Source: a virus. From it: 27,686 nucleotides of DNA. Every line of letters begins with the position of its first letter. The first letter of the stretch is position 1. A program made the position numbers and the translations under genes. Below are positions 1,659-20,760 of the stretch, one piece after another. The notes beneath the pieces were generated by a model. That model saw nothing but the letters and a program-made list of their open reading frames with translations, did no database searches and was not told the DNA's origin. Where the stretch lies: positions 1 through 27,686 of the IMG/VR virus record IMGVR_UViG_3300035698_004472; one strand, 5' to 3'.

Positions 1659-1757
1659 CTTAACCCTCTTATTGCTCATAAACCCCTATTTGTGAGCAAA
1701 ATAGAGGCTACACAAGCCTATCTAAGCATTTACAACGTACAAACACCCACGATTAAC
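1657..1757 (+). ncRNA. Structured intergenic element, copy 1
   Basis: This is the first of two diverged copies of an approximately 100-nt intergenic element. Its core is a hairpin: CCTCT 1665-1669 with AGAGG 1703-1707, and TTGCTCA 1672-1678 with TGAGCAA 1693-1699, around a 14-nt loop. Compared with copy 2 at 1924-2027, the inner stem differs at three pairs and all three still pair, while the loop is nearly unchanged. This indicates selection on RNA structure. It lies between two tiny genes. Function is unknown; mRNA processing, stability or translational control are possibilities. Confidence 0.65.
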
Positions 1758-2939: not shown

Positions 2940-2972
2940 ATGTTTCAACCAGTCAAACAGAATACAGTATAA
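2940..2972 (+). other. Possible leader peptide with strong RBS
   Basis: The ATG at 2940 is preceded by GGAGGGGGCAAATG, one of the strongest Shine-Dalgarno sequences in the window, yet the frame encodes only 10 residues (MFQPVKQNTV). The stop falls inside the first copy of the 20-bp tandem repeat. It may be a leader peptide, or the remains of a longer gene cut short. A second tiny ORF of 14 residues starts at 3051 (MKNKNKRVVAGKQS). Neither can be confirmed as translated. Confidence 0.3.
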
Positions 2973-3003
2973 CGAGGAACGCAACAGTATAACGAGGAAC
3001 GCA
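2964..3003 (+). repeat. 20-bp tandem direct repeat
   Basis: The unit ACAGTATAACGAGGAACGCA occurs twice without a gap, at 2964-2983 and 2984-3003, with no mismatch. It lies in the non-coding region between terminator and next gene. It could be a recent slippage duplication or a pair of iteron-like binding sites. Outside these two units the stretch 2902-3082 shows only AT-rich sequence and GGAGG at 3014. Confidence 0.8.
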
Positions 3004-3082
3004 AAAGTTTCGTGGAGGTAATCATTCTAAATAATTAACATAAATCAAAAATGAAAAACAAAAACAAAAGAGTTGTTGCAGG

Positions 3083-3317
3083 CAAACAATCCTAAAAAAC
3101 TCAAAAACACAAAAAACTTATTAATTACACAAAACTAACTTTATATTTATACCTAACTATTATGACTTTTATATTTATAACAAAACCAATTAAAACAACC
3201 AATACAACAACAAACTTATCCCACAAACTACCAACTGCAATCAACACACAAACTCCCAACTTAATCCAACAAACTCTTATTAAAATTAAAAACAACAATA
3301 CTATAAACATACAAACC
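3083..3317 (+). other. G-depleted, C-retaining strand segment
   Basis: By hand count, this 235-nt segment has only two G (3164 and 3237) but about 57 C on the plus strand; the G at 3164 is that of an ATG. The change is abrupt on both sides. It includes about 80 nt of non-coding leader and the first 50 or so codons of the gene at 3162. An RNA from this strand would be almost unable to form G-C or G-U pairs. Possible reasons are an unstructured leader, a replication-origin strand bias, or directional mutation. Confidence 0.7.
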
Positions 3318-3566
3318 GAACTTATAAAGACATTATGGGAGGAGTCGCTAAAATTATGCGACACAATACTTTGCTACAATGCAAAAGGGAATAGTCCAGT
3401 TGGATCAGTAGACCGAGGGCCATGTATGTATAATGACTACTGGCGCAAAGACATCCCCGACAGCATCGCTTTTTCGATGGATTGTATTGACGAAATGGTA
3501 AAGGATTTTAGAAAAGGAAAACAAAGACAATGGTACGGATATAGAAAATGGAAACTAAATAATTAA
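3162..3566 (+). CDS. Hypothetical protein with low-complexity N-terminus
   Basis: This encodes 134 residues. The first 55 or so come from the G-depleted segment and are Thr/Asn/Ile/Gln-rich (for example TTNTTTNLSHKLPTAINTQT). The rest has ordinary composition with features of a folded domain: LWEESLKLCDTILCYNAKG, GSVDRGPCMYNDYW and a basic C-terminus (FRKGKQRQWYGYRKWKLNN). There is no later in-frame ATG before the domain except the Met at CMYNDYW, so 3162 is the best start. The N-terminal half may be real or an accident of biased composition. No family was recognised. Confidence 0.5.
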   Translation: MTFIFITKPIKTTNTTTNLSHKLPTAINTQTPNLIQQTLIKIKNNNTINIQTELIKTLWEESLKLCDTILCYNAKGNSPVGSVDRGPCMYNDYWRKDIPDSIAFSMDCIDEMVKDFRKGKQRQWYGYRKWKLNN

Positions 3567-3609
3567 TCATAACTTATGGATAAGAGGTGGAAAGAGTGGA
3601 TAACTTTTT

Positions 3610-3639
3610 AAGGGTAATATAAATAAAAATATTGCCCTT
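3610..3639 (+). other. Intergenic hairpin
   Basis: An 11-bp stem pairs 3610-3620 with 3629-3639 (one T-G wobble) around an 8-nt A-rich loop. It lies after the gene ending at 3566 and 38 nt before the promoter at 3677. GTGGAC follows rather than a T-run, so termination would be weak; an A/T-rich run does precede the left arm. Confidence 0.55.
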
Positions 3640-3676
3640 GTGGACAAGATATATTATTGCCTAATATTACAATAGC

Positions 3677-3705
3677 TTGACATACACCAGTATATCCTAT
3701 ATAAT
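3677..3705 (+). promoter_or_regulatory. Consensus sigma70-type promoter
   Basis: TTGACA at 3677-3682 and TATAAT at 3700-3705 are both perfect consensus hexamers, separated by exactly 17 nt. This is the cleanest housekeeping-sigma promoter I see in the window. Transcription would start near 3712, directly at the beginning of the structured non-coding segment, with no ORF nearby. It implies strong early expression of that RNA by the host polymerase. Confidence 0.85.
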
Positions 3706-3711
3706 TAGTAG

Positions 3712-4213
3712 TATAGTACATTAATAATAGATATTATCGTTTATTACATTCAGAGGAGACCACCATAAAAATATCCTTGGGAATAGAATTAAGACCTTTA
3801 TTCTTAGGTCTCTTCTGAATATAGTAAATGATATTATATTTATCTAATCATCTTGGGAGAAAGTATCGGATAGAAAGGACACAATAATTTTCATATAAAA
3901 GCCTTTATATAAGATTCTTTTCTTCTCGTACAGTCCTTCTAGATGATTAGATAAACATACTATTGTTATCAGATTTTACATCTATTTAAAGATAGATGTA
4001 ATAAACAATATACCCCTTAATATTTTTACATAAATAGTATCTGGACAGGAGAATATATCTTTAATGTATATACTCTATCAAGATTCAAACACCAGAATAA
4101 GTCATGGCCTAGTAGTAACAACCTGTTACCACTTAACCATAGACCTGCCTGGAGGGGACGTAATACAAATGGGGAGGACTAGGTTGCGTAGACCGACATC
4201 CTCCCTCCCATGG
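3712..4213 (+). ncRNA. Large structured RNA, class unknown
   Basis: About 500 nt with no credible ORF follow a consensus promoter. Helices visible by eye: (A) 3731-3761 with 3807-3837, about 31 positions with two mismatches and three G-T wobbles, capped by a small hairpin (TAAGA with TCTTA); (B) 3840-3853 with 3941-3954, a perfect 14 bp, enclosing 3875-3880 with 3933-3938 and a 7-bp hairpin 3893-3899 with 3904-3910; (C) 3961-3967 with 4004-4010, enclosing 3976-3985 with 3992-4001, a perfect 10 bp; (D) 4049-4058 with 4068-4075; (E) a GC-rich 3' domain closed by 4103-4107 with 4208-4212, containing 4115-4119 with 4125-4129, 4108-4113 with 4178-4183, and 4172-4178 with 4199-4205. The last two cross, so they are a pseudoknot or alternatives. 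CAGAT 3970-3974 with ATCTG 4039-4043 is another possible pseudoknot. Size and phage context recall GOLLD or ROOL RNAs, but I cannot identify the class. The 3' end is approximate. Confidence 0.75.
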
Positions 4214-4217
4214 TTTT

Positions 4218-4358
4218 ATGAATTTAGAATTAAAAATAGGAAAACACAAAACAATAATTACAAGTGTTGAGCATAAAAGTTCAAACGAAGTAAAAGAAAA
4301 ATTATTTGAATTTTTAGTAACTGTAATAAATATAAAAAAAATACTTGAAAAGAAATAA
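4218..4358 (+). CDS. Hypothetical small protein, 46 aa
   Basis: This 46-residue ORF starts right after the 3' end of the structured RNA. It begins with alternating charged and hydrophobic residues (MNLELKIGKHKTIITSVEHK), likely beta strands, then a helix (EVKEKLFEFLVTVINIKKIL). The next gene starts 2 nt after its stop, supporting an operon. No Shine-Dalgarno is visible. No family was recognised. Confidence 0.45.
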   Translation: MNLELKIGKHKTIITSVEHKSSNEVKEKLFEFLVTVINIKKILEKK

Positions 4359-4359
4359 T

Positions 4360-4533
4360 ATGTATAGATTAATAAGAAAAATAATATCTAAATATCATAA
4401 TCTTAGATTAAATTGGAAGCTAACAGGCAAATATGTAGAATGCCAAACATTATCAGAAGCTTACGAAAAAGCCGTTACAAATAAAAACTCTATTATTTTA
4501 ATTGGAGAGGATAAGATTAAAGTATATAAGTAA
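4360..4533 (+). CDS. Hypothetical small protein, 57 aa
   Basis: This encodes 57 residues. The ATG at 4360 is preferred over an upstream TTG at 4345 because it follows the previous stop by one base and has the local AATAATATG context. The N-terminus is basic (MYRLIRKIISKYHNLRLNWK); the rest (TLSEAYEKAVTNKNSIILIG) looks like a helix and strand. Genes of this operon are spaced by one or two bases. No known domain was recognised. Confidence 0.5.
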   Translation: MYRLIRKIISKYHNLRLNWKLTGKYVECQTLSEAYEKAVTNKNSIILIGEDKIKVYK

Positions 4534-4534
4534 T

Positions 4535-4837
4535 ATGTCAAAAGAATTAAAACCAAAAACTAAATTCGTATTTGATACTGGTAATCTTCCAGATTTTTCT
4601 AAAGAAAGAGATTTTAGAACTGAAAGACGATTATTTTTAAAAGCATTCAAGACATATAATAAAATTTTATCTAAGAGTAAATTCTTTTGGAGAATTAAAT
4701 ATCTATTTTATAAATATATATTAAAACATACTTACACCATAGGAGTTGACATAGGTAGTCAAGATATAGATACTTCTGTCATTGTAAGGCACGATAAAAA
4801 AGGAAATCGTATAGTTGAAAAAATATGTCAAAATTAA
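4535..4837 (+). CDS. Hypothetical protein with RNase H-like strand motif
   Basis: This encodes 100 residues, with the ATG at 4535 chosen because it lies one base after the previous stop. The N-terminal two thirds is basic and aromatic (RRLFLKAFKTYNKILSKSKF). The last 30 residues, TIGVDIGSQDIDTSVIVRHD plus a G-containing turn, look like the first beta hairpin of an RNase H-like or actin-like fold (D in a V-D-I-G context), as in RuvC or terminase nuclease domains. The rest of such a fold is absent. It may be a fragment of a larger enzyme, or the resemblance may be chance. It overlaps the next gene by 13 nt in another frame. Confidence 0.5.
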   Translation: MSKELKPKTKFVFDTGNLPDFSKERDFRTERRLFLKAFKTYNKILSKSKFFWRIKYLFYKYILKHTYTIGVDIGSQDIDTSVIVRHDKKGNRIVEKICQN

Positions 4838-4992
4838 TACTAAACGAAGAAGCAAAAAACCTCCTTGCTAAATGGCGCCCGACACTAAGCAACGCAGATG
4901 ACATTGCCATCAGAGATCTTGTTAATAACGGAGGTAAATATCAAAAGGACAATATAATAAAACTAATTAAATTATTAAAGAAACGAGTATGA
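4825..4992 (+). CDS. Hypothetical small protein, 55 aa
   Basis: This 55-residue ORF begins within the end of the previous gene (ATATGTCAAAATT context) and ends with an ATGA overlap onto the next start, typical of translational coupling. The sequence (LILNEEAKNLLAKWRPTLSN, then DDIAIRDLVNNGG and a basic helix) looks helical and soluble. A possible internal RBS (GGAGG at 4929) lies too far upstream to serve the next gene. No family was recognised. Confidence 0.5.
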   Translation: MSKLILNEEAKNLLAKWRPTLSNADDIAIRDLVNNGGKYQKDNIIKLIKLLKKRV

Positions 4993-5330
4993 AAAAAAAT
5001 AACAAAGAAGAAGATGAACTAAAAATAAAAGATAGAGTTTATTACGTTCTTAAAGGAAAAGAAGATTTATTTTACTATCTTTTTGGAGGTAATATAAAAG
5101 AAATAACGGACAAGGGTGATGAAAAGATATGTACAATATCTGAATGGAGTGGTTATAGCAATAACGAAGAAGTAGAAGAAGCAAATATATTTAAAACAGA
5201 AAAAGAAGCAGTAGAAAGAGAAAAGTATTTAAATTATCCTTTATTTAAAAAAACTATTGAAAAATTATTTTCATACAACACTGAACGAGAGAAGAAGGTT
5301 AGTAGAGCATTACAATCATTAATTAAATAA
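4989..5330 (+). CDS. Hypothetical protein, 113 aa
   Basis: This encodes 113 residues and starts in an ATGA overlap with the preceding gene. The N-terminus is charged (KKNNKEEDELKIKDRVYYVL), and the middle is strand-rich with YYLFGGNIKEITDKGDEK and ISEWSGYS, ending in a helical segment (TIEKLFSYNTEREKKVSRAL). There is no signal peptide or catalytic motif. It is the last gene of the small-gene operon that starts after the structured RNA; the exported-protein gene follows 13 nt later. Function is unknown. Confidence 0.6.
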   Translation: MKKNNKEEDELKIKDRVYYVLKGKEDLFYYLFGGNIKEITDKGDEKICTISEWSGYSNNEEVEEANIFKTEKEAVEREKYLNYPLFKKTIEKLFSYNTEREKKVSRALQSLIK

Positions 5331-5343
5331 TATATAACAAATT

Positions 5344-12337: not shown

Positions 12338-12876
12338 TAATACATAATTATAAACATCCACCATTAAAAGAGCTGTGTGAGATATTCGGAGTTTCCATGG
12401 TGTGGGCCATTAATAAGAGAGTCAGAAATTTTAGAGATGAGATTGAAGATTTACAGAGACAAAAAGGTATAGCTATAAAACATATTATCCAAGACGGATG
12501 GTCATTGTATGAACCGGCTAAAATAGACAAGCAAATCATGAAAATAGAAAAGACTGTTAAATGGCTTAACAAAATAAAGAAAGTTAAAGACGATGTTGAA
12601 TTTCAAGAGGTGATGTCGCGAGGAGTTGACCTTAGTGTTATAAAAGACATTCCCATAGATGAAGTCTTAGATCGATACAATAGAAGGTATGACAAGAATA
12701 GGTTCTTCAAACTGAGGCCAGAAGAGACTACAGCATCAGCACAATTCAATGTTGAAAAGACTCTTTTCTGCGATCGGGGAAATAGTAATGAGGGCGGAAG
12801 TGTAGTCGATTTAATGATGGTTTTAGAAAAATGCTCAGTCGGAGAGGCTATTAAAAAACTAACTTATATATTATGA
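12334..12876 (+). CDS. Degenerate CHC2 zinc-finger primase-like protein
   Basis: This encodes 180 residues and starts in an ATGA overlap with the helicase gene. The N-terminal 45 residues look like a helix-turn-helix (LKELCEIFGVSMVWAINKRV). Residues 105-180 follow the layout of the DnaG CHC2 domain: IPIDEVLDRYN, RPEETTASAQFNV, LFCDRGNSNEGGSVVDLMMV and SVGEAIKKLTYIL, matching DnaG patterns such as CPFHxEKTPSF, HCFGCGxGG and DxIxF. Of the four usual zinc ligands only Cys146 seems to remain. The fold appears kept while the metal site is lost. It may bind single-stranded template or couple helicase to priming. The similarity is by eye and needs a profile search. Confidence 0.6.
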   Translation: MIIHNYKHPPLKELCEIFGVSMVWAINKRVRNFRDEIEDLQRQKGIAIKHIIQDGWSLYEPAKIDKQIMKIEKTVKWLNKIKKVKDDVEFQEVMSRGVDLSVIKDIPIDEVLDRYNRRYDKNRFFKLRPEETTASAQFNVEKTLFCDRGNSNEGGSVVDLMMVLEKCSVGEAIKKLTYIL

Positions 12877-13052
12877 AAACTAAAATTAAGCTCATCAAAA
12901 AAACAACATATATTATTGATGATGAATCTGAATTAAAATTAATAAGATTCTGTTTGGACTATTGTTGGCACAGAGCAACTAAACATAAAACACCGGTGTC
13001 CGGGCTAGACAAAGGAATTAATAAAATGAGAAAAGAATTCGAAAAAAACTAA
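12873..13052 (+). CDS. Hypothetical protein, 59 aa
   Basis: This encodes 59 residues and starts in an ATGA overlap with the CHC2-like gene, so it is likely coupled to the replication operon. It starts with a basic strand (KTKIKLIKKTTYIIDDESEL) and continues LIRFCLDYCWHRATKHK, with Cys and His that might bind metal, ending in a Lys/Glu helix. No family was recognised. Confidence 0.55.
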   Translation: MKTKIKLIKKTTYIIDDESELKLIRFCLDYCWHRATKHKTPVSGLDKGINKMRKEFEKN

Positions 13053-13073
13053 TAAATTAATAAAATAAATATT

Positions 13074-13277
13074 ATGGTGAATCCACTATTAAAATTTAAA
13101 GAAGACAACAAGCTTACTTTTAAACAAGTAGCTGCAAAATTAGGCAAGGGAGAAATTACGACTATTCAATTAGCTCGTATGACTCCAGAGTCATTACGTA
13201 CCAAGCAAGTAGATACTATTTTAATAGTAAAAGAAAAGCTAGGAATAGACTTAATTGAGTATATCGAGAACGGATAA
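13074..13277 (+). CDS. Small helix-turn-helix-like protein
   Basis: This encodes 67 residues. The pattern LTFKQVAAKLGKGEITTIQL, then MTPESLRTKQVDTILIVKEK, resembles a Cro/C1-type helix-turn-helix in which QVAAKLG is the first helix. The second helix is less typical, so DNA binding is only plausible. The C-terminus (LGIDLIEYIENG) is helical. It starts from ATATTATGG without a Shine-Dalgarno and precedes the hairpin and gene of the probable single-strand-binding protein. It could be a regulator or a small structural partner. Confidence 0.5.
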   Translation: MVNPLLKFKEDNKLTFKQVAAKLGKGEITTIQLARMTPESLRTKQVDTILIVKEKLGIDLIEYIENG

Positions 13278-13303
13278 TAGTTTAATTAATTATATAAAGA
13301 TTG

Positions 13304-13332
13304 GTATTACAAGCACAGCGTGGTTGTGATAC
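13304..13332 (+). promoter_or_regulatory. Leader hairpin of SSB-like gene
   Basis: GTAT 13304-13307 pairs with ATAC 13329-13332, then a T-G wobble, ACAA 13309-13312 with TTGT 13324-13327, a G-G mismatch, and CAC 13314-13316 with GTG 13320-13322, with an AGC loop. It ends 13 nt before the ATG at 13346 and supports that start over a TTG at 13301, which would place the hairpin inside the coding region. Such a position is suitable for translational control. Confidence 0.55.
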
Positions 13333-13345
13333 TAAAACTACAACT

Positions 13346-14083
13346 ATGGGTTTTATCGAAAGGGACAACAAAATTTTTGCCAAAATCACAGCAGATGGCA
13401 TTGTAAGAATTCCTACAAGTGAAACAGATCCAGAAGCAGTTACACGTGAAGTGGAATTGTCAGACGGAGCTAAAAAAACTTATCACGAGTTGGAGAAGAA
13501 AGGAATTCAAGGAAAAATTGAGAGCATCGAATTTAAAGAAACAGATTATGGCAAGATGTTAAACATTACATTTGCATTAGAGGAAGGACAGAGAAATCAA
13601 ATTGTACTAGGTTTGTCAGCAGGGAATAACTTTGCCACTTCATTCATGGAGAGATTGCCTAACTTAGATTTATCAAGAGAGATTTCATTATCTCCATGGG
13701 CAATGGAAAAGAACGGAAAATCTACTAAAGGAATGGTTGTATGGCAAACACCAAAAGACGCAGAAGAAGGAACAGCTAAAGTAAAAGTACCGAGCTTTTT
13801 TAAGACACCTTATGTAGAAGGAACAAGAAGTAAATTATTAAATAATTATCCTGCACCAGAAGGTGATGGCAAAGGATTTGATAAAGACGATTGGAAAATG
13901 TACTTCACAACTGTTAAGAAATTCTTAATTAAGTTTACAGAAGAAAATATCATTCCTACTATCGGAGCAGGGTTTGATACTTCTAGTGCTAAACCAGGTA
14001 GCTTAGATGACGTAGAAACAAAAGAAGAAGATAAAGGAGCAGAAAATGAAGACGGAGTTAAGGTAGAAGACGTACCTATGTAG
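13346..14083 (+). CDS. Probable single-stranded DNA-binding protein
   Basis: This encodes 245 residues. The start at ATG 13346 fits the local context ACAACTATGG and leaves a hairpin in the leader. The body is strand-rich (KIFAKITADGIVRIP, KIESIEFKETDYGKMLNITF, NQIVLGLSAGNNFATSFMER). It ends in an acidic tail (SLDDVETKEEDKGAENEDGV and then KVEDVPM), a hallmark of SSB proteins such as T4 gp32 and T7 gp2.5, where the tail contacts replication partners. It lies between the primase-helicase and recombination genes. No recognisable signature was found, so the assignment rests on tail, composition and context. It could also be another DNA-binding replication accessory. Confidence 0.5.
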   Translation: MGFIERDNKIFAKITADGIVRIPTSETDPEAVTREVELSDGAKKTYHELEKKGIQGKIESIEFKETDYGKMLNITFALEEGQRNQIVLGLSAGNNFATSFMERLPNLDLSREISLSPWAMEKNGKSTKGMVVWQTPKDAEEGTAKVKVPSFFKTPYVEGTRSKLLNNYPAPEGDGKGFDKDDWKMYFTTVKKFLIKFTEENIIPTIGAGFDTSSAKPGSLDDVETKEEDKGAENEDGVKVEDVPM

Positions 14084-14095
14084 TAATTTTTTAAA

Positions 14096-14119
14096 GTGGG
14101 ATTATGAAAATAATCCCAC
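14096..14119 (+). other. Perfect hairpin with GAAA tetraloop
   Basis: GTGGGATTAT 14096-14105 pairs perfectly with ATAATCCCAC 14110-14119 around a GAAA tetraloop, 12 nt after the stop of the SSB-like gene. A T-run precedes the left arm and none follows the right arm. It is followed by an ATTATTAATTAAATATAAAA box and the next ATG. It could be a 3'-end stabiliser or attenuator. Confidence 0.75.
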
Positions 14120-14149
14120 CCATAAAGATTATTAATTAAATATAAAAAT

Positions 14150-14401
14150 ATGTACACAGAAAACATTAAAATGGAAGATTCTAGGACTGTGGAGACTACG
14201 GGTTACATGGGAAAGACTATCTTTTCTAAATGTATATTTGGTCTTCATTCTGTCCTTAGTAAAGAAGATGATTACGAAGAATGTAAAAATATAATTAAAA
14301 AAAGAATTGATGATCACCTCGATCAAAGACAAAAAGAGATTGAGGAACGAGCTAATAAATTTAAAGCAGGTGTTAACAAAAAACCTGCACCTAGTCTATG
14401 A
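14150..14401 (+). CDS. Hypothetical protein, 83 aa
   Basis: This encodes 83 residues. The first half contains GYMGKTIFSKCIFGLHSVLS and the second is a charged helix (KNIIKKRIDDHLDQRQKEIEERANKF), possibly coiled coil. The start context AAAAATATG lacks a Shine-Dalgarno. The gene begins a new unit after the hairpin and AT box and overlaps the next gene by ATGA. No family was recognised. Confidence 0.55.
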   Translation: MYTENIKMEDSRTVETTGYMGKTIFSKCIFGLHSVLSKEDDYEECKNIIKKRIDDHLDQRQKEIEERANKFKAGVNKKPAPSL

Positions 14402-14646
14402 GTGAAGATTCTGAAATGTGGGAAGAAATACATAAAGAAAATAAAAAGAGGAAAAAAGAGAATCAGAAAAATTCTTTAAAAATATTACAAGAAAAAGGTA
14501 TAACTTGGCAATTATTAAATGATGATACTTGTCATTATAGAGTTGGTGAATTTGATTATTGGCCGACTACTGGTAAATTTTATAATCAGAAAACAAAACA
14601 AAAAGGACGTGGAGTTTTCAATCTAATAAAAATTTTAAAAAACTAA
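14398..14646 (+). CDS. Hypothetical protein, 82 aa
   Basis: This encodes 82 residues and starts in an ATGA overlap with the previous gene. The N-terminus is a charged helix (EEIHKENKKRKKENQKN). The C-terminal half, GITWQLLNDDTCHYRVGEFD followed by YWPTTGKFYNQKTKQKGRGV and a NLIKIL helix, fits a small phage domain in which a WPxTGxFxxxxxxxxGRGVxNL pattern recurs; I know it only as a hypothetical family. It might bind nucleic acid. It is co-oriented with the recombination genes that follow. Confidence 0.6.
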   Translation: MSEDSEMWEEIHKENKKRKKENQKNSLKILQEKGITWQLLNDDTCHYRVGEFDYWPTTGKFYNQKTKQKGRGVFNLIKILKN

Positions 14647-14656
14647 ACATAAAACT

Positions 14657-15655
14657 ATGGATGATACAAAAAAAGAGTTTGAGATTGATGAATTCAATCC
14701 CAAAAAAGAAGAGCTAGTCACACTAGCTGAAAAATACAAAGGCCTTACAATTAAAAACATGAATGACATTGAAGGTTATAGCGCTGTTAATAAAGCACGT
14801 AAGGAATTGAAAACTGTTAGATGCGATTATGACAAGCAGGTAGAGGGTGCTATAAAATCAAAAAGAGATGATTATAATTCTTTTAGAACGAATCTATTAA
14901 AATTAAAAGATTCTTTTGTAAAGATTATTGAACCATTAGAAATAGAATTGAAAGGCAAGACCGACGCTATAGATGATGAGAGAGCAAGGAAACAAAGAGT
15001 GGCAACTCTTCCGGAGAGAAAGGAAAGATTAGAAACAATAGAGGGTGTTTGGAGTGACGAAGATATATTATCTATGGATGATAAAGAATTCGACACAAAC
15101 TTTAATGAAGCGAAAACTCTTTGGTTAGAAGAGAAAGAAAGAATGATGAAAGAAAAGGAAGATAAGATTAAAGCAGATGAAGAAAGAATTGAGAATGAGA
15201 AGAAAATAGAAGCAGAGAAAAAGAAAGCACGTGAAGAAGCATTAGAAGAAGCAGAGAAGCAAGCTAAATTAGACAAAGAAGAGTCTGAAAGAAAGATAAT
15301 TGAAGAAGCTGCTAAAGTTGAGCATGAAAAAAAAGAATCAGAAGCAAGGGCTGTAGTAGAGAAGCAAGAAGCTATCGCTACTGAGAGAAAAAAAGCAGAA
15401 GTTGAGAAGCAAGCTATTATAGATGAGCAGGCTAGAAAAGACAAAGAAGCTAAGGAAGAGATCGAGAGAAAAGAAAAAGTTGAGGCTGAGGCAAAGGCCG
15501 AGGCTGAACTTAAACAAAAAAGAATAGATAATGATAAAAGTTATCATGAGTTCTTAGATAGGAATAAGTATGTTGAAGGACCAGGTTTTTTATTAACTAA
15601 CACAGATACTAAAGTCGTTATCTATAAAAAGATTGATGAGTTTATTAAACCATAG
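14657..15655 (+). CDS. DUF1351-like coiled-coil recombination-associated protein
   Basis: This encodes 332 residues. Residues 20-110 include YSAVNKARKELKTVRCDYDK followed by FRTNLLKLKDSFVKIIEPLE, matching the layout of DUF1351 phage proteins, which often lie beside exonuclease, SSB and single-strand-annealing genes. Residues 150-290 are a long Glu/Lys/Ala coiled coil (for example KIEAEKKKAREEALEEAEKQ). The C-terminal segment (HEFLDRNKYVEGPGFLLTNT) is a short folded end. The PD-(D/E)XK nuclease gene starts 4 nt after its stop. A role as scaffold or partner in recombination is inferred from neighbourhood only. Confidence 0.65.
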   Translation: MDDTKKEFEIDEFNPKKEELVTLAEKYKGLTIKNMNDIEGYSAVNKARKELKTVRCDYDKQVEGAIKSKRDDYNSFRTNLLKLKDSFVKIIEPLEIELKGKTDAIDDERARKQRVATLPERKERLETIEGVWSDEDILSMDDKEFDTNFNEAKTLWLEEKERMMKEKEDKIKADEERIENEKKIEAEKKKAREEALEEAEKQAKLDKEESERKIIEEAAKVEHEKKESEARAVVEKQEAIATERKKAEVEKQAIIDEQARKDKEAKEEIERKEKVEAEAKAEAELKQKRIDNDKSYHEFLDRNKYVEGPGFLLTNTDTKVVIYKKIDEFIKP

Positions 15656-15659
15656 CTAT

Positions 15660-16460
15660 ATGATAAAAAAAGAAGATTACTTTGATAGAGTCAAAGGAGC
15701 AAAAGCATTGACTAGATCAAAGATAATGGATTTTAAGAAGTGTAAATCCTATTTTAAGAAAAAACATATAGAGGGTACTCTTGAAAAGAAATTACTTGGG
15801 GACCCTTTAATCAAAGGATCAGCTGTAGATTGTATTTTAACAGAATCAAGAGAAAAGTTTGATGCAACATATTATATAGTATCTGGAAACAGGAATAAAA
15901 AAGCACTTGATTATGAATTCCAACTAACTGAGACTCTATACAGAGAGATTCTTTCTCTTGCAGATAGTGTTGAAAGGCAAGATGCTTATAAAGAAATAAA
16001 AGCAAAAGGATATATTGCCCAGGAGCTTATTCAGGTTGATATGGAATTAGGTGAACATTTTGATTGCTTATGTGGCCTCCCAGATTGGTATTTGATTTCA
16101 AAGGATGGAAAACATTGTCATATAGTCGATCTTAAAACCTCTAAAGATGGTGATGATAGAAAATATTTATGGCATTGTGTTGACTATTTTTATTTTGAGC
16201 AGCAAGCACTTTATCAATTAATTTTAGCTAAACTTCACCCAGAAATTGAAACATTTATTTCTGATCATTTAGTTGTAGAAAAAGATTCTAATGGTATATA
16301 TGATTGTTATATCTATACGCTTGCTAAGAGCAGAATTGAAAGAGAGAAAGTTAATATGCTTGCATACATCGAACAAATAAAAAATGAGAAAGACTTTTTA
16401 CCTAAGAACGTAAGCTTCAAAGATGCGATTACTATTGGAGCGTTAAATAACGAAGAATAA
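15660..16460 (+). CDS. PD-(D/E)XK exonuclease, RecE/Cas4-like
   Basis: This encodes 266 residues. The ATG at 15660 is preferred because an earlier in-frame ATG at 15633 lies inside the DUF1351-like gene and 15660 follows its stop by 4 nt. Motifs: LTRSKIMDFKKC near 17-28, the KGSAVDCILTE block at 52-62, GLPDW at 139-143 (first catalytic Asp), VDLKTS at 156-161 with D157 and K159, and QQALY at 181-185. This is the RecB-like nuclease pattern shared with RecE, lambda-type exonucleases and Cas4. The enzyme probably degrades one strand of duplex DNA to make 3' tails for annealing. The single Cys near 28 does not suggest an intact Fe-S cluster. Confidence 0.85.
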   Translation: MIKKEDYFDRVKGAKALTRSKIMDFKKCKSYFKKKHIEGTLEKKLLGDPLIKGSAVDCILTESREKFDATYYIVSGNRNKKALDYEFQLTETLYREILSLADSVERQDAYKEIKAKGYIAQELIQVDMELGEHFDCLCGLPDWYLISKDGKHCHIVDLKTSKDGDDRKYLWHCVDYFYFEQQALYQLILAKLHPEIETFISDHLVVEKDSNGIYDCYIYTLAKSRIEREKVNMLAYIEQIKNEKDFLPKNVSFKDAITIGALNNEE

Positions 16461-16464
16461 TTAT

Positions 16465-16821
16465 ATGACAAACGAAAAAATATTTAAAAAAGCAATAGAG
16501 AAAGTTATTAAGAATGGCTGGAAAGGCGTTAATCCATTAGAGATTAAAATTGAACCACACGATAAAACTATTCCAAGAGATATAATTGATGTTATGAGTT
16601 GGATTACAGCACAACCTTATATTATAGAACTTATCTTTTTTCCTGACTTTGCAAAAGCTCTTTGGGGAGAGGAGTGGCAAGAGGGTGATTGTATAAAACA
16701 ATCTGCTGATGAGATGTTTTTAAGACCTCCGTCTAGATGGAAATATTATCAACATCAAATGTTAGACGAGATACAAGAAGGTAAAGACCCTATTAAATAT
16801 TTAGAACAATTTATAAAATAG
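16465..16821 (+). CDS. Hypothetical phage protein, paralogue B
   Basis: This encodes 118 residues and is a paralogue of the gene at 6373-6708, with shared KKAIEK, KNGW, PDFAKALWGEEWQEGDCIKQ, ADEMFLRPPSRW and a C-terminal PIKYLEQF. Divergence is strongest in residues 25-50. Having two copies 10 kb apart in one phage suggests dosage or specialisation. No function is known to me. It lies 4 nt after the nuclease gene and 7 nt before the helicase gene. Confidence 0.75.
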   Translation: MTNEKIFKKAIEKVIKNGWKGVNPLEIKIEPHDKTIPRDIIDVMSWITAQPYIIELIFFPDFAKALWGEEWQEGDCIKQSADEMFLRPPSRWKYYQHQMLDEIQEGKDPIKYLEQFIK

Positions 16822-16828
16822 AAACAAA

Positions 16829-18217
16829 ATGAAAGTAATAATAGGTAGTAAAATTAAAATCGTTGGGGCGGAAGAGAGGGTTAAGCGTTTAATGCGAAAA
16901 GCATTGACATTAGTTAACCCTCAATACCAGATGGCTGTATGTATGGCTCGTAAGGACCCAGCAAAAAGAAAGATGTTGTATGCCATGACTCCGACATTCA
17001 AATATTACACAGAAGTTTTAGATACATTTATTGTTTCACGTGGACTTAAAGAAAGGATATTAAGATTTTTTAAGGTGAACAAATTTGAATATGAACTAGA
17101 AGAAAATTATTGTTCTAAGTTAATGAAGAATTATCTAGCAGAAAAAATTGTTCTTCGTGATTACCAAGAAGGTGATGATGATACTATCCTACAACATAAA
17201 CAAGGGATAATAAAACTAGGGACAGCTTATGGAAAAACTATTATTGCTTTAAAACTTGCAGAAGAAAACAGATTAAGAACATTAATAATTTGTTGTAAGG
17301 CAGAATTATCAGAGCTATCAAAATACAAGCATGACTTCAAAGAGATCTACGGATATGACATAGGAGTAATCCAGGGTAAAGTTTGTAACATCTCCGATGT
17401 CACAGTCGCAACCATGTCTACTCTAGCCAGAAGTGATTTATCTAAGCTAAAAAATGAGTTTGGAATGCTAATAGTTGACGAATGTCACGTTTCATTGTCT
17501 GATAAACGTAAAAAGGTGGTAGAATCGTTCAATTCTTACTACAGATACGGTATGTCAGGCACCCCAGGGCGAGCTAACGGTCAATCTGAGGCTGTAAAGT
17601 TCTTATATGGCTCAATAATCATAGACAAGAAACTACCTCAGGACAAGCCTTCTGTGCATGTATATAAAACAAATGTAGACGTTGGGGCATCACAATACCA
17701 CGAAATGGAAGAGGCGGTAATGTATAGCGTAAAAAGAAACGTTATAATAAGAAATATTATAAAAGAGAGATTAAGTGAAAACAGAAGAATACTTGTATTA
17801 ACTAAAAGAATAGAACATGGGGTAATAATAAGAGAGGAATTAAAACATTTTTATAAAATAAATTCCATAGCAATATCTTCAAAAGATCCTGCTAGTATGC
17901 GGAATGAATTAATACAGGCTCTCAGGAGCGAGCAGAAAGACTTTCAAGTATTAATAGGAACATATAGTCTCCTATCTACTGGTGTGGACATTGAAAGATT
18001 AGATACTGTTATTCTAGCCATGTCAATAAAGGTGGACGGTGAGTATGATGCTACGTTAATACAATCAGTCGGTAGAATATTACGTCTTTATGGTAAGAAA
18101 CAAAAACCTTTAATAATCGATCTAGATGATAATTTAAATAAAATAATGCACAGACATCATAACTCTCGAATGGCAGTGTACAAACGCGAGGGATGGTGTG
18201 TGAGTAAAATGAATTGA
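16829..18217 (+). CDS. SF2 DNA helicase, XPB/UvsW-like
   Basis: This encodes 462 residues. Motifs: LRDYQ (Q-like) at 109-113, Walker A GTAYGKT at 131-137, Walker B VDECH with DECH at 217-220, motif III SGTPGR at 243-248, motif V TYSLLSTGVDI near 378-388, and motif VI QSVGRILR at 412-419. This is the order of SF2 helicases of the XPB/UvsW/RAD25 group in phages, which act in recombination-dependent replication by branch migration or fork remodelling. The N-terminal 100 residues (IIGSKIKIVGAEERVKRLM and following) may be a DNA-binding domain. It is flanked by nuclease, methyltransferase and resolvase-like genes. Confidence 0.92.
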   Translation: MKVIIGSKIKIVGAEERVKRLMRKALTLVNPQYQMAVCMARKDPAKRKMLYAMTPTFKYYTEVLDTFIVSRGLKERILRFFKVNKFEYELEENYCSKLMKNYLAEKIVLRDYQEGDDDTILQHKQGIIKLGTAYGKTIIALKLAEENRLRTLIICCKAELSELSKYKHDFKEIYGYDIGVIQGKVCNISDVTVATMSTLARSDLSKLKNEFGMLIVDECHVSLSDKRKKVVESFNSYYRYGMSGTPGRANGQSEAVKFLYGSIIIDKKLPQDKPSVHVYKTNVDVGASQYHEMEEAVMYSVKRNVIIRNIIKERLSENRRILVLTKRIEHGVIIREELKHFYKINSIAISSKDPASMRNELIQALRSEQKDFQVLIGTYSLLSTGVDIERLDTVILAMSIKVDGEYDATLIQSVGRILRLYGKKQKPLIIDLDDNLNKIMHRHHNSRMAVYKREGWCVSKMN

Positions 18218-18218
18218 T

Positions 18219-18683
18219 ATGAAAAAAATAATAGATGTTTGTTGTGGTAGTAGAATGTTCTGGTTTGATAAGAAAAATAAAGATGTTATTTTTAATGATA
18301 TAAGAAAAGAAAAGCATATACTATGTGATGGGAGAAAACTAGATATAAATCCGGACACAATGATGGACTTTACTAATTTATCTAAAATAAAAACAGGAAC
18401 AATGAAGCTAGTTGTATTCGATCCTCCTCACATGAAAACATTGGGAGCTAATAGTTGGATGGCGAAGAAGTATGGAAAATTAACTGGTGATTGGAAAATA
18501 GATATATCAAAAGGCTTTAAAGAATGTTTTAGAATCTTAGATAAATATGGTGTGTTAATATTTAAGTGGAATGAAACTGATATTAAAACAAGTGAAATAT
18601 TAAAACTTACAAACAACAAACCATTATTTGGTCATTTGTCTGGTAAAAGGTCAAATACTCATTGGATTTGTTTTATGAAATAA
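18219..18683 (+). CDS. Class I SAM-dependent methyltransferase
   Basis: This encodes 154 residues. The start IIDVCCGSRMFWFDKKNKDV matches a widespread phage methyltransferase family that opens with DxCCGxRMFW. FDPPHM near residues 68-73 corresponds to the (D/N)PP(Y/W/H) catalytic motif IV of amino-methyltransferases. The rest, GFKECFRILDKYGVLIFKWN, is the usual strand and helix after motif IV. Substrate is uncertain: adenine N6 in DNA is likely, but no target domain is visible. It begins one base after the helicase stop. Confidence 0.85.
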   Translation: MKKIIDVCCGSRMFWFDKKNKDVIFNDIRKEKHILCDGRKLDINPDTMMDFTNLSKIKTGTMKLVVFDPPHMKTLGANSWMAKKYGKLTGDWKIDISKGFKECFRILDKYGVLIFKWNETDIKTSEILKLTNNKPLFGHLSGKRSNTHWICFMK

Positions 18684-18687
18684 ACAT

Positions 18688-19173
18688 ATGATAGTCACAT
18701 CAAAACAACACGTAAACAAATATAAGCTACAAACACCTTATTTAGAGAAGGATTTGCAAGGGAAGATTGGGAGGTGGATTAATGAAAAGCTAAGGACATT
18801 TAATCTACCAGAAGAATTGCTAGGGTCACTCAATGAAGTAAAGATTTCTACAGGTGGAACAATAGCTTTTTCTAAATTTGAAGACCAACAAATTCCATCA
18901 TTAATGAAGTCTGATAAGAGTGGACTTTACCATAAAATGACAGATGCTTCATTTGGATCTAAGCCAGGAGATTTCGTTATAACAAAGGGTGGGTATATAT
19001 TCTGTCAGTTTTGGAAAAATAGGCAACAAGAGATATGTTATTATATGGACATTCGTTCTGTAATAATTAAAGTAAAATTGAGAGGAGAGAAGTCGATTAA
19101 GGAAACAGACTTCATGTTACATGGCCACAAAATTAATTTAGCTGACTATAAAGTTGGCATTAAGAAGAAATAG
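18688..19173 (+). CDS. Possible PD-(D/E)XK resolvase-like nuclease
   Basis: This encodes 161 residues. The centre, KMTDASFGSKPGDFVITKGG followed by YIFCQFWKN and a FYMID-like YYMDIRSVI, resembles Holliday-junction-resolvase-like phage proteins in which a SD..xxxKPxDF segment precedes a beta strand and an IDI/VDI strand. A catalytic (D/E)xK triad is not certain, since the usual ExK is replaced by CQFWK. It lies between methyltransferase and phosphatase genes and near the helicase, a context compatible with recombination. Confidence in function is low; an alternative is an unknown phage protein. Confidence 0.4.
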   Translation: MIVTSKQHVNKYKLQTPYLEKDLQGKIGRWINEKLRTFNLPEELLGSLNEVKISTGGTIAFSKFEDQQIPSLMKSDKSGLYHKMTDASFGSKPGDFVITKGGYIFCQFWKNRQQEICYYMDIRSVIIKVKLRGEKSIKETDFMLHGHKINLADYKVGIKKK

Positions 19174-19174
19174 T

Positions 19175-19600
19175 ATGAGACTAGGAAAAATAAAACAAAA
19201 AGCTATTGTTGTAGATATTGATGGAACTATTGCCCTAAAGGGAGATAGAAGCCCTTATGATTGGGATAGCGTCGATAAGGACACAATCAATAAGACAATA
19301 GTAGACTTAGTAAACTTGCTAGGCTCTCATTATATAGTAATATTAGTATCTGGTAGAGACGCATCATGCAAGGAGAAAACTATAGATTGGTTAGAAAAAA
19401 ATGATATAGATTATGATTTATTGTTTATGAGAGAAGAAGGAAATAACGAAAAAGATGTTCTTATAAAACAAAGAATATATAACAAGCTTATTAAAGATAA
19501 TTATAAAGTTCAATTTGTTCTTGATGATAGAAACCAAACCGTTGCAGGTTGGAGAGAAATCGGTTTAACATGTCTTCAAGTAGCAGAAGGCGATTTCTAA
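19175..19600 (+). CDS. Polynucleotide 3'-phosphatase (Pnkp C-terminal-like)
   Basis: This encodes 141 residues of the HAD superfamily; the ATG at 19175 follows the preceding stop by one base. Motif I is VDIDGT with catalytic Asp14 and Asp16, followed by RSPYDWDSVDKDTINK as in T4 Pnkp. Motif II is VSGRDASCKEKTIDWL, then MREEGNNEKDVLIKQRIYNK and DDRNQTVAGWREIGLTCLQV with the AEGDF ending, all aligning with the T4 phosphatase domain from memory. It removes 3'-phosphates or 2',3'-cyclic phosphates from RNA or DNA ends. The N-terminal P-loop kinase half of T4 Pnkp is missing and no kinase is seen elsewhere in the window. Confidence 0.9.
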   Translation: MRLGKIKQKAIVVDIDGTIALKGDRSPYDWDSVDKDTINKTIVDLVNLLGSHYIVILVSGRDASCKEKTIDWLEKNDIDYDLLFMREEGNNEKDVLIKQRIYNKLIKDNYKVQFVLDDRNQTVAGWREIGLTCLQVAEGDF

Positions 19601-19604
19601 CTAT

Positions 19605-19739
19605 ATGCGTAAATGTTTAGTATGTGGAAAGTCTTATCACTACCCATCATGGAAGACATGTAGTATTGAGTGTCGCAATTTTCGTAAGAACAAACAAATT
19701 GATGAGTATAGAAAACGTAAAAAACTAAAGAAACAATAA
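19605..19739 (+). CDS. Zinc-finger-like microprotein
   Basis: This encodes 44 residues, 4 nt after the phosphatase stop. CLVCG at 4-8 and CSIEC at 19-23 form a CxxC...CxxxC zinc-binding pattern, followed by a strongly basic helix (RNFRKNKQIDEYRKRKKLKK) that could contact nucleic acid. The next gene starts one base after its stop. No Shine-Dalgarno is apparent. Family unknown. Confidence 0.6.
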   Translation: MRKCLVCGKSYHYPSWKTCSIECRNFRKNKQIDEYRKRKKLKKQ

Positions 19740-19740
19740 T

Positions 19741-20199
19741 ATGAAAGTAAGAACAAAAGAAAATGGTTCAAACAACGATGATTGGAAGACCCCCTCCTAT
19801 CTTTTAGATAAAATAAAAGAGGAGTTTGGAGAATTTTATGATCCTTGCCCTTATCAAGCTAAATTTGACGGTTTAAAATCAGAATGGGGAGATGTTAATT
19901 TTATAAACCCTCCATATAGCACAGGAAATAAAACAGCATTTATTAAAAAAGCAATAGAAGAATATAAGAAAGGAAAGACTTGTATATTGTTAATACCAGC
20001 CTCAACTGAAACAAAGGATTTTAAAATGCTTTGGGAAAATGCAAATGAAATAAGATTCATACATAAAAGAGTAAAATTTCATGGTTATAATACCAAAAAA
20101 AAATGGGTGACAAATGCTACTGGCCAAACTGGAAGCATGCTAATTATATTAAGAGAACATAATTATTTAAAACCGATAACTTCTTTAATTATTTATTAA
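19741..20199 (+). CDS. Phage DNA adenine N6-methyltransferase (Dam-like)
   Basis: This encodes 152 residues. It opens NNDDWKTPSYLLDKIKEEFG, with WKTP at 15-18, DPCP at 34-37 and the catalytic NPPYS at 56-60, the standard layout of short phage N6-adenine methyltransferases of the Dam-related family. LLIPASTETKDF and IRFIHKRVKFHG match later strands. The length is near that of other short versions. Modification of GATC or another site cannot be told from sequence. It is the fourth methyltransferase in the window. Confidence 0.92.
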   Translation: MKVRTKENGSNNDDWKTPSYLLDKIKEEFGEFYDPCPYQAKFDGLKSEWGDVNFINPPYSTGNKTAFIKKAIEEYKKGKTCILLIPASTETKDFKMLWENANEIRFIHKRVKFHGYNTKKKWVTNATGQTGSMLIILREHNYLKPITSLIIY

Positions 20200-20203
20200 A
20201 ATT

Positions 20204-20338
20204 ATGATTAAATTATTTCCAACAATACTTATAGTCTTAGACTTGGGAGCTTCAATAGTTTATCTCTGTAATGGAGATATTAAGAAAGCTATATATTGGA
20301 TTGCTGCTATGACTTTAACTATATGTGTAACTTACTAA
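20204..20338 (+). CDS. Small membrane protein, 44 aa
   Basis: This encodes 44 residues, 4 nt after the methyltransferase stop. Two hydrophobic stretches, about residues 3-21 (FPTILIVLDLGASIVYL) and 30-44 (IYWIAAMTLTICVTY), are joined by a short charged turn (CNGDIKKA). It is probably a two-helix hairpin in the inner membrane. Small phage proteins of this type include holins and exclusion proteins, but position and length give no firm evidence for either. Confidence 0.5.
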   Translation: MIKLFPTILIVLDLGASIVYLCNGDIKKAIYWIAAMTLTICVTY

Positions 20339-20349
20339 TATATAATAAT

Positions 20350-20688
20350 ATGAACTTAAACAAGGTAGACACAAACATTCAACAGAAGAGGAAACACTTT
20401 AAGAAGTTTTCTAAGTTGATTGAAAATCAATTCAATCATGGCGGTGTTAAATATGAAGTAAGCAAGACAAAAGAATTGTCTGATATGATCTGTGAGATGT
20501 TCCCCGGGGACTGTGGAGTAGATTATGTGCTAGGAACTATAATGAAATATGTAGGTCGGTATAAAAACTTCGGTAGAGAAAAAGATTTATTAAAAATTGC
20601 TACGTATTCTTATATCCTTTGGCTAAAAGGTGAATTCTATAATCTTAAAAAAGAAGACCACGATGAGGATGTAAAAAAGAAAGGCTAA
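20350..20688 (+). CDS. DUF3310-like phage protein
   Basis: This encodes 112 residues. The ATG at 20350 is preferred because an earlier in-frame start overlaps the membrane-protein gene and 20350 has the AATAATATG context. The core VDYVLGTIMKYVGRYKNFGR followed by EKDLLKIATYSYILWLKGEF resembles DUF3310-type domains, in which a LGNxxKYxxR segment precedes a DLxKAxxYL helix and which are often annotated with phage nucleotide metabolism. The family's activity is not certain to me. It is the last rightward gene, ending 40 nt before the terminator. Confidence 0.55.
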   Translation: MNLNKVDTNIQQKRKHFKKFSKLIENQFNHGGVKYEVSKTKELSDMICEMFPGDCGVDYVLGTIMKYVGRYKNFGREKDLLKIATYSYILWLKGEFYNLKKEDHDEDVKKKG

Positions 20689-20727: not shown

Positions 20728-20760
20728 AAGAACAGGTACTATTTAACCTGTTCTTCTTTT
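20728..20760. terminator. Bidirectional terminator between convergent clusters
   Basis: AAGAACAGGT 20728-20737 pairs perfectly with ACCTGTTCTT 20746-20755 around an 8-nt loop. An A-run precedes it and a T-run follows, so it can end transcription from both sides. It sits between the rightward gene ending at 20688 and the leftward gene ending at 20778. Confidence 0.92.

Follow-up and report, generated by a model that had tools for sequence, protein, structure and literature searches.

The segment of about 506 nt (positions 3712-4217) that follows the perfect sigma-70-type promoter of an uncultivated bacterial virus is an orphan, but a real and statistically strong feature. It is probably an early leader, large and structured. 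The account that we prefer, though tentatively and with less than even confidence, is that this segment constitutes the untranslated 5' leader of the early-type operon at 4218-20688, that its first ~290 nt are folded and that it acts in cis. Processing, stability or elongation control is the best reading of such a role. The window, that is the whole stretch of DNA analysed, is a podovirus-like phage fragment of 27,686 nt (IMGVR_UViG_3300035698_004472), to which positions refer unless another phage is named.

The genome has a GC content of roughly 31%. Its plus strand carries small and replication genes in runs (a primase of the D5/DUF5906 kind, a helicase, an exonuclease, methylases and an RNA ligase) and its minus strand the structural genes, including those for an internal virion protein and for a tail protein akin to phage stabilisation proteins. 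A Shine-Dalgarno-like motif is absent at 37 of the 39 gene starts of the window, nearly all of which are preceded by A/T-rich regions. These motif-poor starts suggest a host from a group in which Shine-Dalgarno sites are scarce. No tRNA was detected by ARAGORN in the window, itself a fragment. Kin phages were retrieved via the primase: G001 (39,077 nt; primase 41-43% identical over its full length), G002/L003 (13,271 nt; primase about 42% identical) and the more distant L055. A methylase-based search retrieved L056, while a Walker-A pattern led to three phages that are not kin.

The promoter (3677-3705, plus strand) is a perfect TTGACA-17-TATAAT, as an earlier note on this DNA had claimed, and the only perfect one in the window. 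Matches at 12 of 12 positions arose 6 times in 150 shuffles of the whole window, two strands being scanned, or about 0.04 times per window. Perfect copies with a similar TATATAAT core are found in G001 (at 34315 and 3008) and in L003 (at 7387). To judge from the position of the promoter, transcription would start near 3712, and the segment is presumably transcribed. In the kin, promoters of this type precede the primase and share its strand. The genes adjoining the promoter have no detectable counterparts in these phages, so that it is by this place ahead of the primase and by the common strand that the promoter positions are taken as equivalent. Upstream of the promoter, an A/C-rich, G-depleted tract at 3043-3330 shows a reversed GC skew of about -0.25.

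When compared with shuffled sequences, the segment as a whole folds unusually well (z -6.9). The excess is held by 3712-4036, for which z reaches -9.1 and none of 100 shuffles does as well. Folding of the plus strand predicts in this part a closed domain (3722-3968), beginning about 10 nt past the expected transcription start, in which helix P1 (3722-3730 with 3960-3968; pairing probability 0.91) and two long hairpins form a three-way junction. Long hairpin 1 (3731-3837) pairs arms 3731-3761 and 3807-3837 over 31 positions, mostly Watson-Crick. Long hairpin 2 (3838-3956) has a perfect 14-bp core (3840-3853 with 3941-3954) and an imperfect upper stem. Short hairpin 3 (3976-4001) consists of 10 perfect base pairs (3976-3985 with 3992-4001). 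The stems of all three had been described beforehand at these positions, and their scored segments indeed pair with ensemble probabilities of 0.96-1.00. Hairpins 1 and 2 also rank first and second among all inverted repeats of the window: they score 37 and 36, and the highest score in 12 shuffles is 29. Alternative pairings of 3735-3749 with 3996-4010 and of 3717-3732 with 4053-4068 were rejected, their pairing probability being 0.00.

The earlier description of a structured RNA of ~500 nt thus holds for the 5' ~290 nt, where the fold is strong, and fails for the 3' part: in 4036-4216 no structure beyond chance is detected (z -1.3; 26 of 200 shuffles as good). A GC-rich 3' domain closed by pairing of 4103-4107 with 4208-4212 had been proposed as well; this is not confirmed, and the closing helix has a pairing probability of 0.00. 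Composition, codon score and folding describe the plus-strand stretch 4101-4212 as the 110 nt richest in GC within the window (about 51-52% GC), neither coding nor significantly structured. The gene-free control region of L003 also contains a GC-rich island (~6610-6730), with no obvious similarity to 4101-4212.

The 506 nt after the promoter are noncoding. The only ORF of more than 60 aa in the segment (4064-4270) has a codon score of -0.19, versus 0.15-0.50 in the 24 larger genes; codon usage rules out a coding explanation and agrees with the reported absence of a credible ORF. Shine-Dalgarno-like motifs are not enriched in the leader, where there are 4 in 506 nt, a number also held by 9% of windows of sequence. 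The surrounding gap (3567-4217) had been called the largest gene-free region, a distinction it deserves only when ORFs of 40-47 aa at 1316-1923 are counted as genes.

By annotation and terminator scan, a plus-strand block of genes encoding the primase, RNA ligase, methylases and helicase runs from 4218 to 20688. At 16.5 kb it is the largest of the fragment, and it is presumably read from the 3677 promoter. The only terminator-like hairpin on the plus strand between 4200 and 20800 is found at the end of the block (20728-20755), just before the convergent structural genes. Because the 3' end of the segment has no terminator-like site on the plus strand, the first gene starts 5 nt past the proposed closing stem of the 3' domain and the next such site is that at 20728-20755, the segment would appear to be an operon's 5' leader. 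In its sequence anatomy, promoter, untranslated segment and gene block succeed one another without an intervening terminator, as in an early leader. The first ORF (4218-4358, plus strand) encodes 46 aa with phage-like codon usage (score 0.29). The region upstream of its start is unusually GC-rich and devoid of a Shine-Dalgarno motif, and the accessibility of this start, 0.31, is the second lowest of 36 (median 0.59), only the start at 4535 being less accessible still. PADLOC and Pfam identified no partner protein among the neighbouring genes. The RNA ligase gene inside the block lies at 8597-9445 (PF09414, E 2.6e-16).

Transcription from ~3712 would yield the leader and then the long operon message. 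The first ~290 nt are expected to fold, through the closing helix, the two long hairpins and the short one, into a compact domain that most likely works in cis on its own transcript. It is established that 5' folds stabilise messages and that RNase III cuts duplexes (reviewed in PMC3997798). The long near-perfect duplexes of the leader would be the kind of substrate suited to RNase III cutting, and the folded 5' end may shield the long phage message from decay, which suggests a role in processing or stability. Until processing of the leader, the structured entry region, which has no Shine-Dalgarno motif, probably allows little translation of the first ORF. A presumed polycistronic message that begins with long, almost perfect duplexes recalls the hairpins processed by RNase III and the stabilising 5' stem-loops found in bacterial and phage messages. 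It differs from these in having two adjacent very long hairpins joined by a closing helix, and the likeness is one of duplex length.

Searches for relatives of the segment were negative. No Rfam family matched, including those that the earlier note had singled out for a covariance-model search (GOLLD, ROOL, HEARO, OLE, group I and II introns); for GOLLD this holds window-wide. Searches at the gathering threshold, and with relaxed filters on 3560-4300 (E <= 10), returned nothing beyond chance matches, mostly miRNA and snoRNA families landing on the long hairpins. In 50,697 phage records, a distant blastn search with the segment revealed no homologue, the best match (E 0.05 across 34 nt) being dismissed, and the exact RNA pattern had 0 matches across viral contigs. 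An 18-mer of the GC-rich part matched genome contigs 7 times, in unrelated taxa and about as often as expected by chance, and was likewise dismissed. The segment is absent from 14 virus records that are kin, share the promoter or carry the primase motif, each searched whole; none of G001, G002/L003, L055, L056 and the three Walker-A-pattern phages carries it. The promoter pattern occurs at 34 loci in viral contigs, which have only the 29-nt promoter as common sequence, and behind none of them is there a leader both ORF-free and equally strongly folded. Counted from the first base of the -35 hexamer, an ORF begins after 59 nt in G001 (promoter 34315) and after 63 nt in L003. As the leaders of the kin are this short after the same promoter, the function of the leader is not common to the group. 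Since no relative was found, the segment is probably a control leader and it would be premature to call it a new giant RNA; nor can a new class be claimed from a single sequence.

The main rival explanation places the function in the DNA. The two adjacent long inverted repeats would be a protein-binding or replication site, or a decaying inserted palindrome, with no function as RNA. We regard this as rather unlikely. The minus strand of the segment folds equally well (z -6.7), and both strands folding alike is what such an element would show. A G-U pair on one strand is an A-C mismatch on the other, and when the arms are aligned strand-neutrally the two wobble directions are tied 13:13 (if only the three 5' hairpins are counted, 10:6, which is not significant). 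Given this tie, selection of one strand for its RNA fold is without sequence evidence. In addition, the kin do without the segment, and the strongest inverted repeats of G001 and L003 are located in control regions devoid of genes, ahead of promoters and not in leaders. Together with the strand tie, this location keeps the DNA-level explanation serious. However, an element directly behind a perfect promoter would be transcribed, the segment has no iteron-like direct repeats inside, and there is no second copy of it within the fragment. The argument for RNA is one of position, namely the start of the folded domain just past the expected start site of the window's sole perfect promoter. We infer from it that the RNA form, rather than the DNA form, is the one that matters.

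It is improbable that the segment is a free, trans-acting large phage RNA, GOLLD- or ROOL-like in function and possibly of a new class. Such an RNA would share with the segment its phage origin, size of ~500 nt, strong promoter, lack of an ORF and strong 5' fold, and GOLLD and ROOL are themselves phage-encoded, untranslated and several hundred nt long. They have distinct covariance models and often lie near tRNA genes or islands, a frequent trait though not a strict one, and what is conserved universally in GOLLD is its 3' region (PMC12286853). In contrast, the segment appears to be an operon leader and has an unstructured 3' part with no terminator-like site at its end; two long hairpins, not multi-branched domains, dominate its fold. 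The window, a fragment, has no tRNA genes or island, and neither covariance model reached E 10 on 3560-4300, so that the earlier suggestion of a divergent GOLLD or ROOL member finds no confirmation. With homologues lacking too, a free GOLLD/ROOL-like RNA is poorly supported.

Quite improbable, and suggested by analogy, is a put-like antitermination leader, the nascent domain of which would bind RNA polymerase and let it cross the long operon. The precedent is provided by the put RNAs of phage HK022, two-stem-loop leaders of ~70 nt downstream of early promoters, which act over at least 10 kb and need no dedicated protein (PMC9378689). Like putL and putR, the segment has the anatomy of a hairpin leader in cis that follows an early phage promoter, its closed two-hairpin domain lying near the expected start at the head of a 16.5-kb block. 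However, at ~250-290 nt versus ~70 nt the domain is 3-4 times longer than put and has no sequence or family link to it, the likeness being anatomical only. Moreover, the block offers no terminator-like hairpins on the plus strand to cross, and the kin manage without the domain. The most far-reaching proposal, also quite improbable, is a new class of large phage RNA that has its own strong promoter, is released from the operon transcript and acts in trans during infection of a Shine-Dalgarno-poor host.

Several other repeats and hairpins were observed. Two 89-nt intercistronic repeats of the window (1664-1752 and 1933-2021) are 76% identical and form the same 16-bp hairpin. Three neighbouring pairs differ between them on both sides with the pairing kept (UA/CG, CG/UA, AU/GC), which argues for a selected hairpin more strongly than anything in the 3712-4217 segment; no copy of this repeat was found in the other loci. 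A gene-free stretch contains, at 2964-3003, a perfect tandem repeat of a 20-nt unit (ACAGTATAACGAGGAACGCA, twice). At 2830-2866, where the first plus-strand gene group ends, a perfect hairpin of 14 bp with a T run behind it resembles a terminator. In the kin, gene-free regions of 1-1.4 kb, rich in repeats and palindromes (L011 11333-12740, corresponding to G001 31333-32740, and L003 6382-7390), separate the leftward terminase side from the first promoter that reads rightward. The region of L003 folds with z -8.95 on its minus strand. Two intercistronic elements of L011 (13101-13150 and 13323-13375) place a common frame, TAAACCCCGGCC...CGTTGGTGTTTAAT, around different hairpins. Strong hairpins at or directly upstream of the primase start occur in two kin (L010 966-1060 and L055 9342-9442) and were not seen in the window.

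The reading of the segment as a cis-acting leader is thus favoured by helix probabilities of 0.91-1.00, the z of the 5' fold, the noncoding sequence, the GC-rich and poorly accessible start of the first ORF and the place ahead of a block free of internal terminator-like sites on the plus strand. Against it stand the lack of a homologue, the wobble tie, the folding of the minus strand, the short leaders of the kin and the still lower accessibility of the start at 4535. With no known homologue, the segment is mainly a candidate for RNA-seq and larger metagenome searches. If the RNA reading is true, a phage in which nearly all genes are free of Shine-Dalgarno motifs would begin its main operon with a folded leader of unusual size, and this would offer a handle on the control of early expression in such phages.
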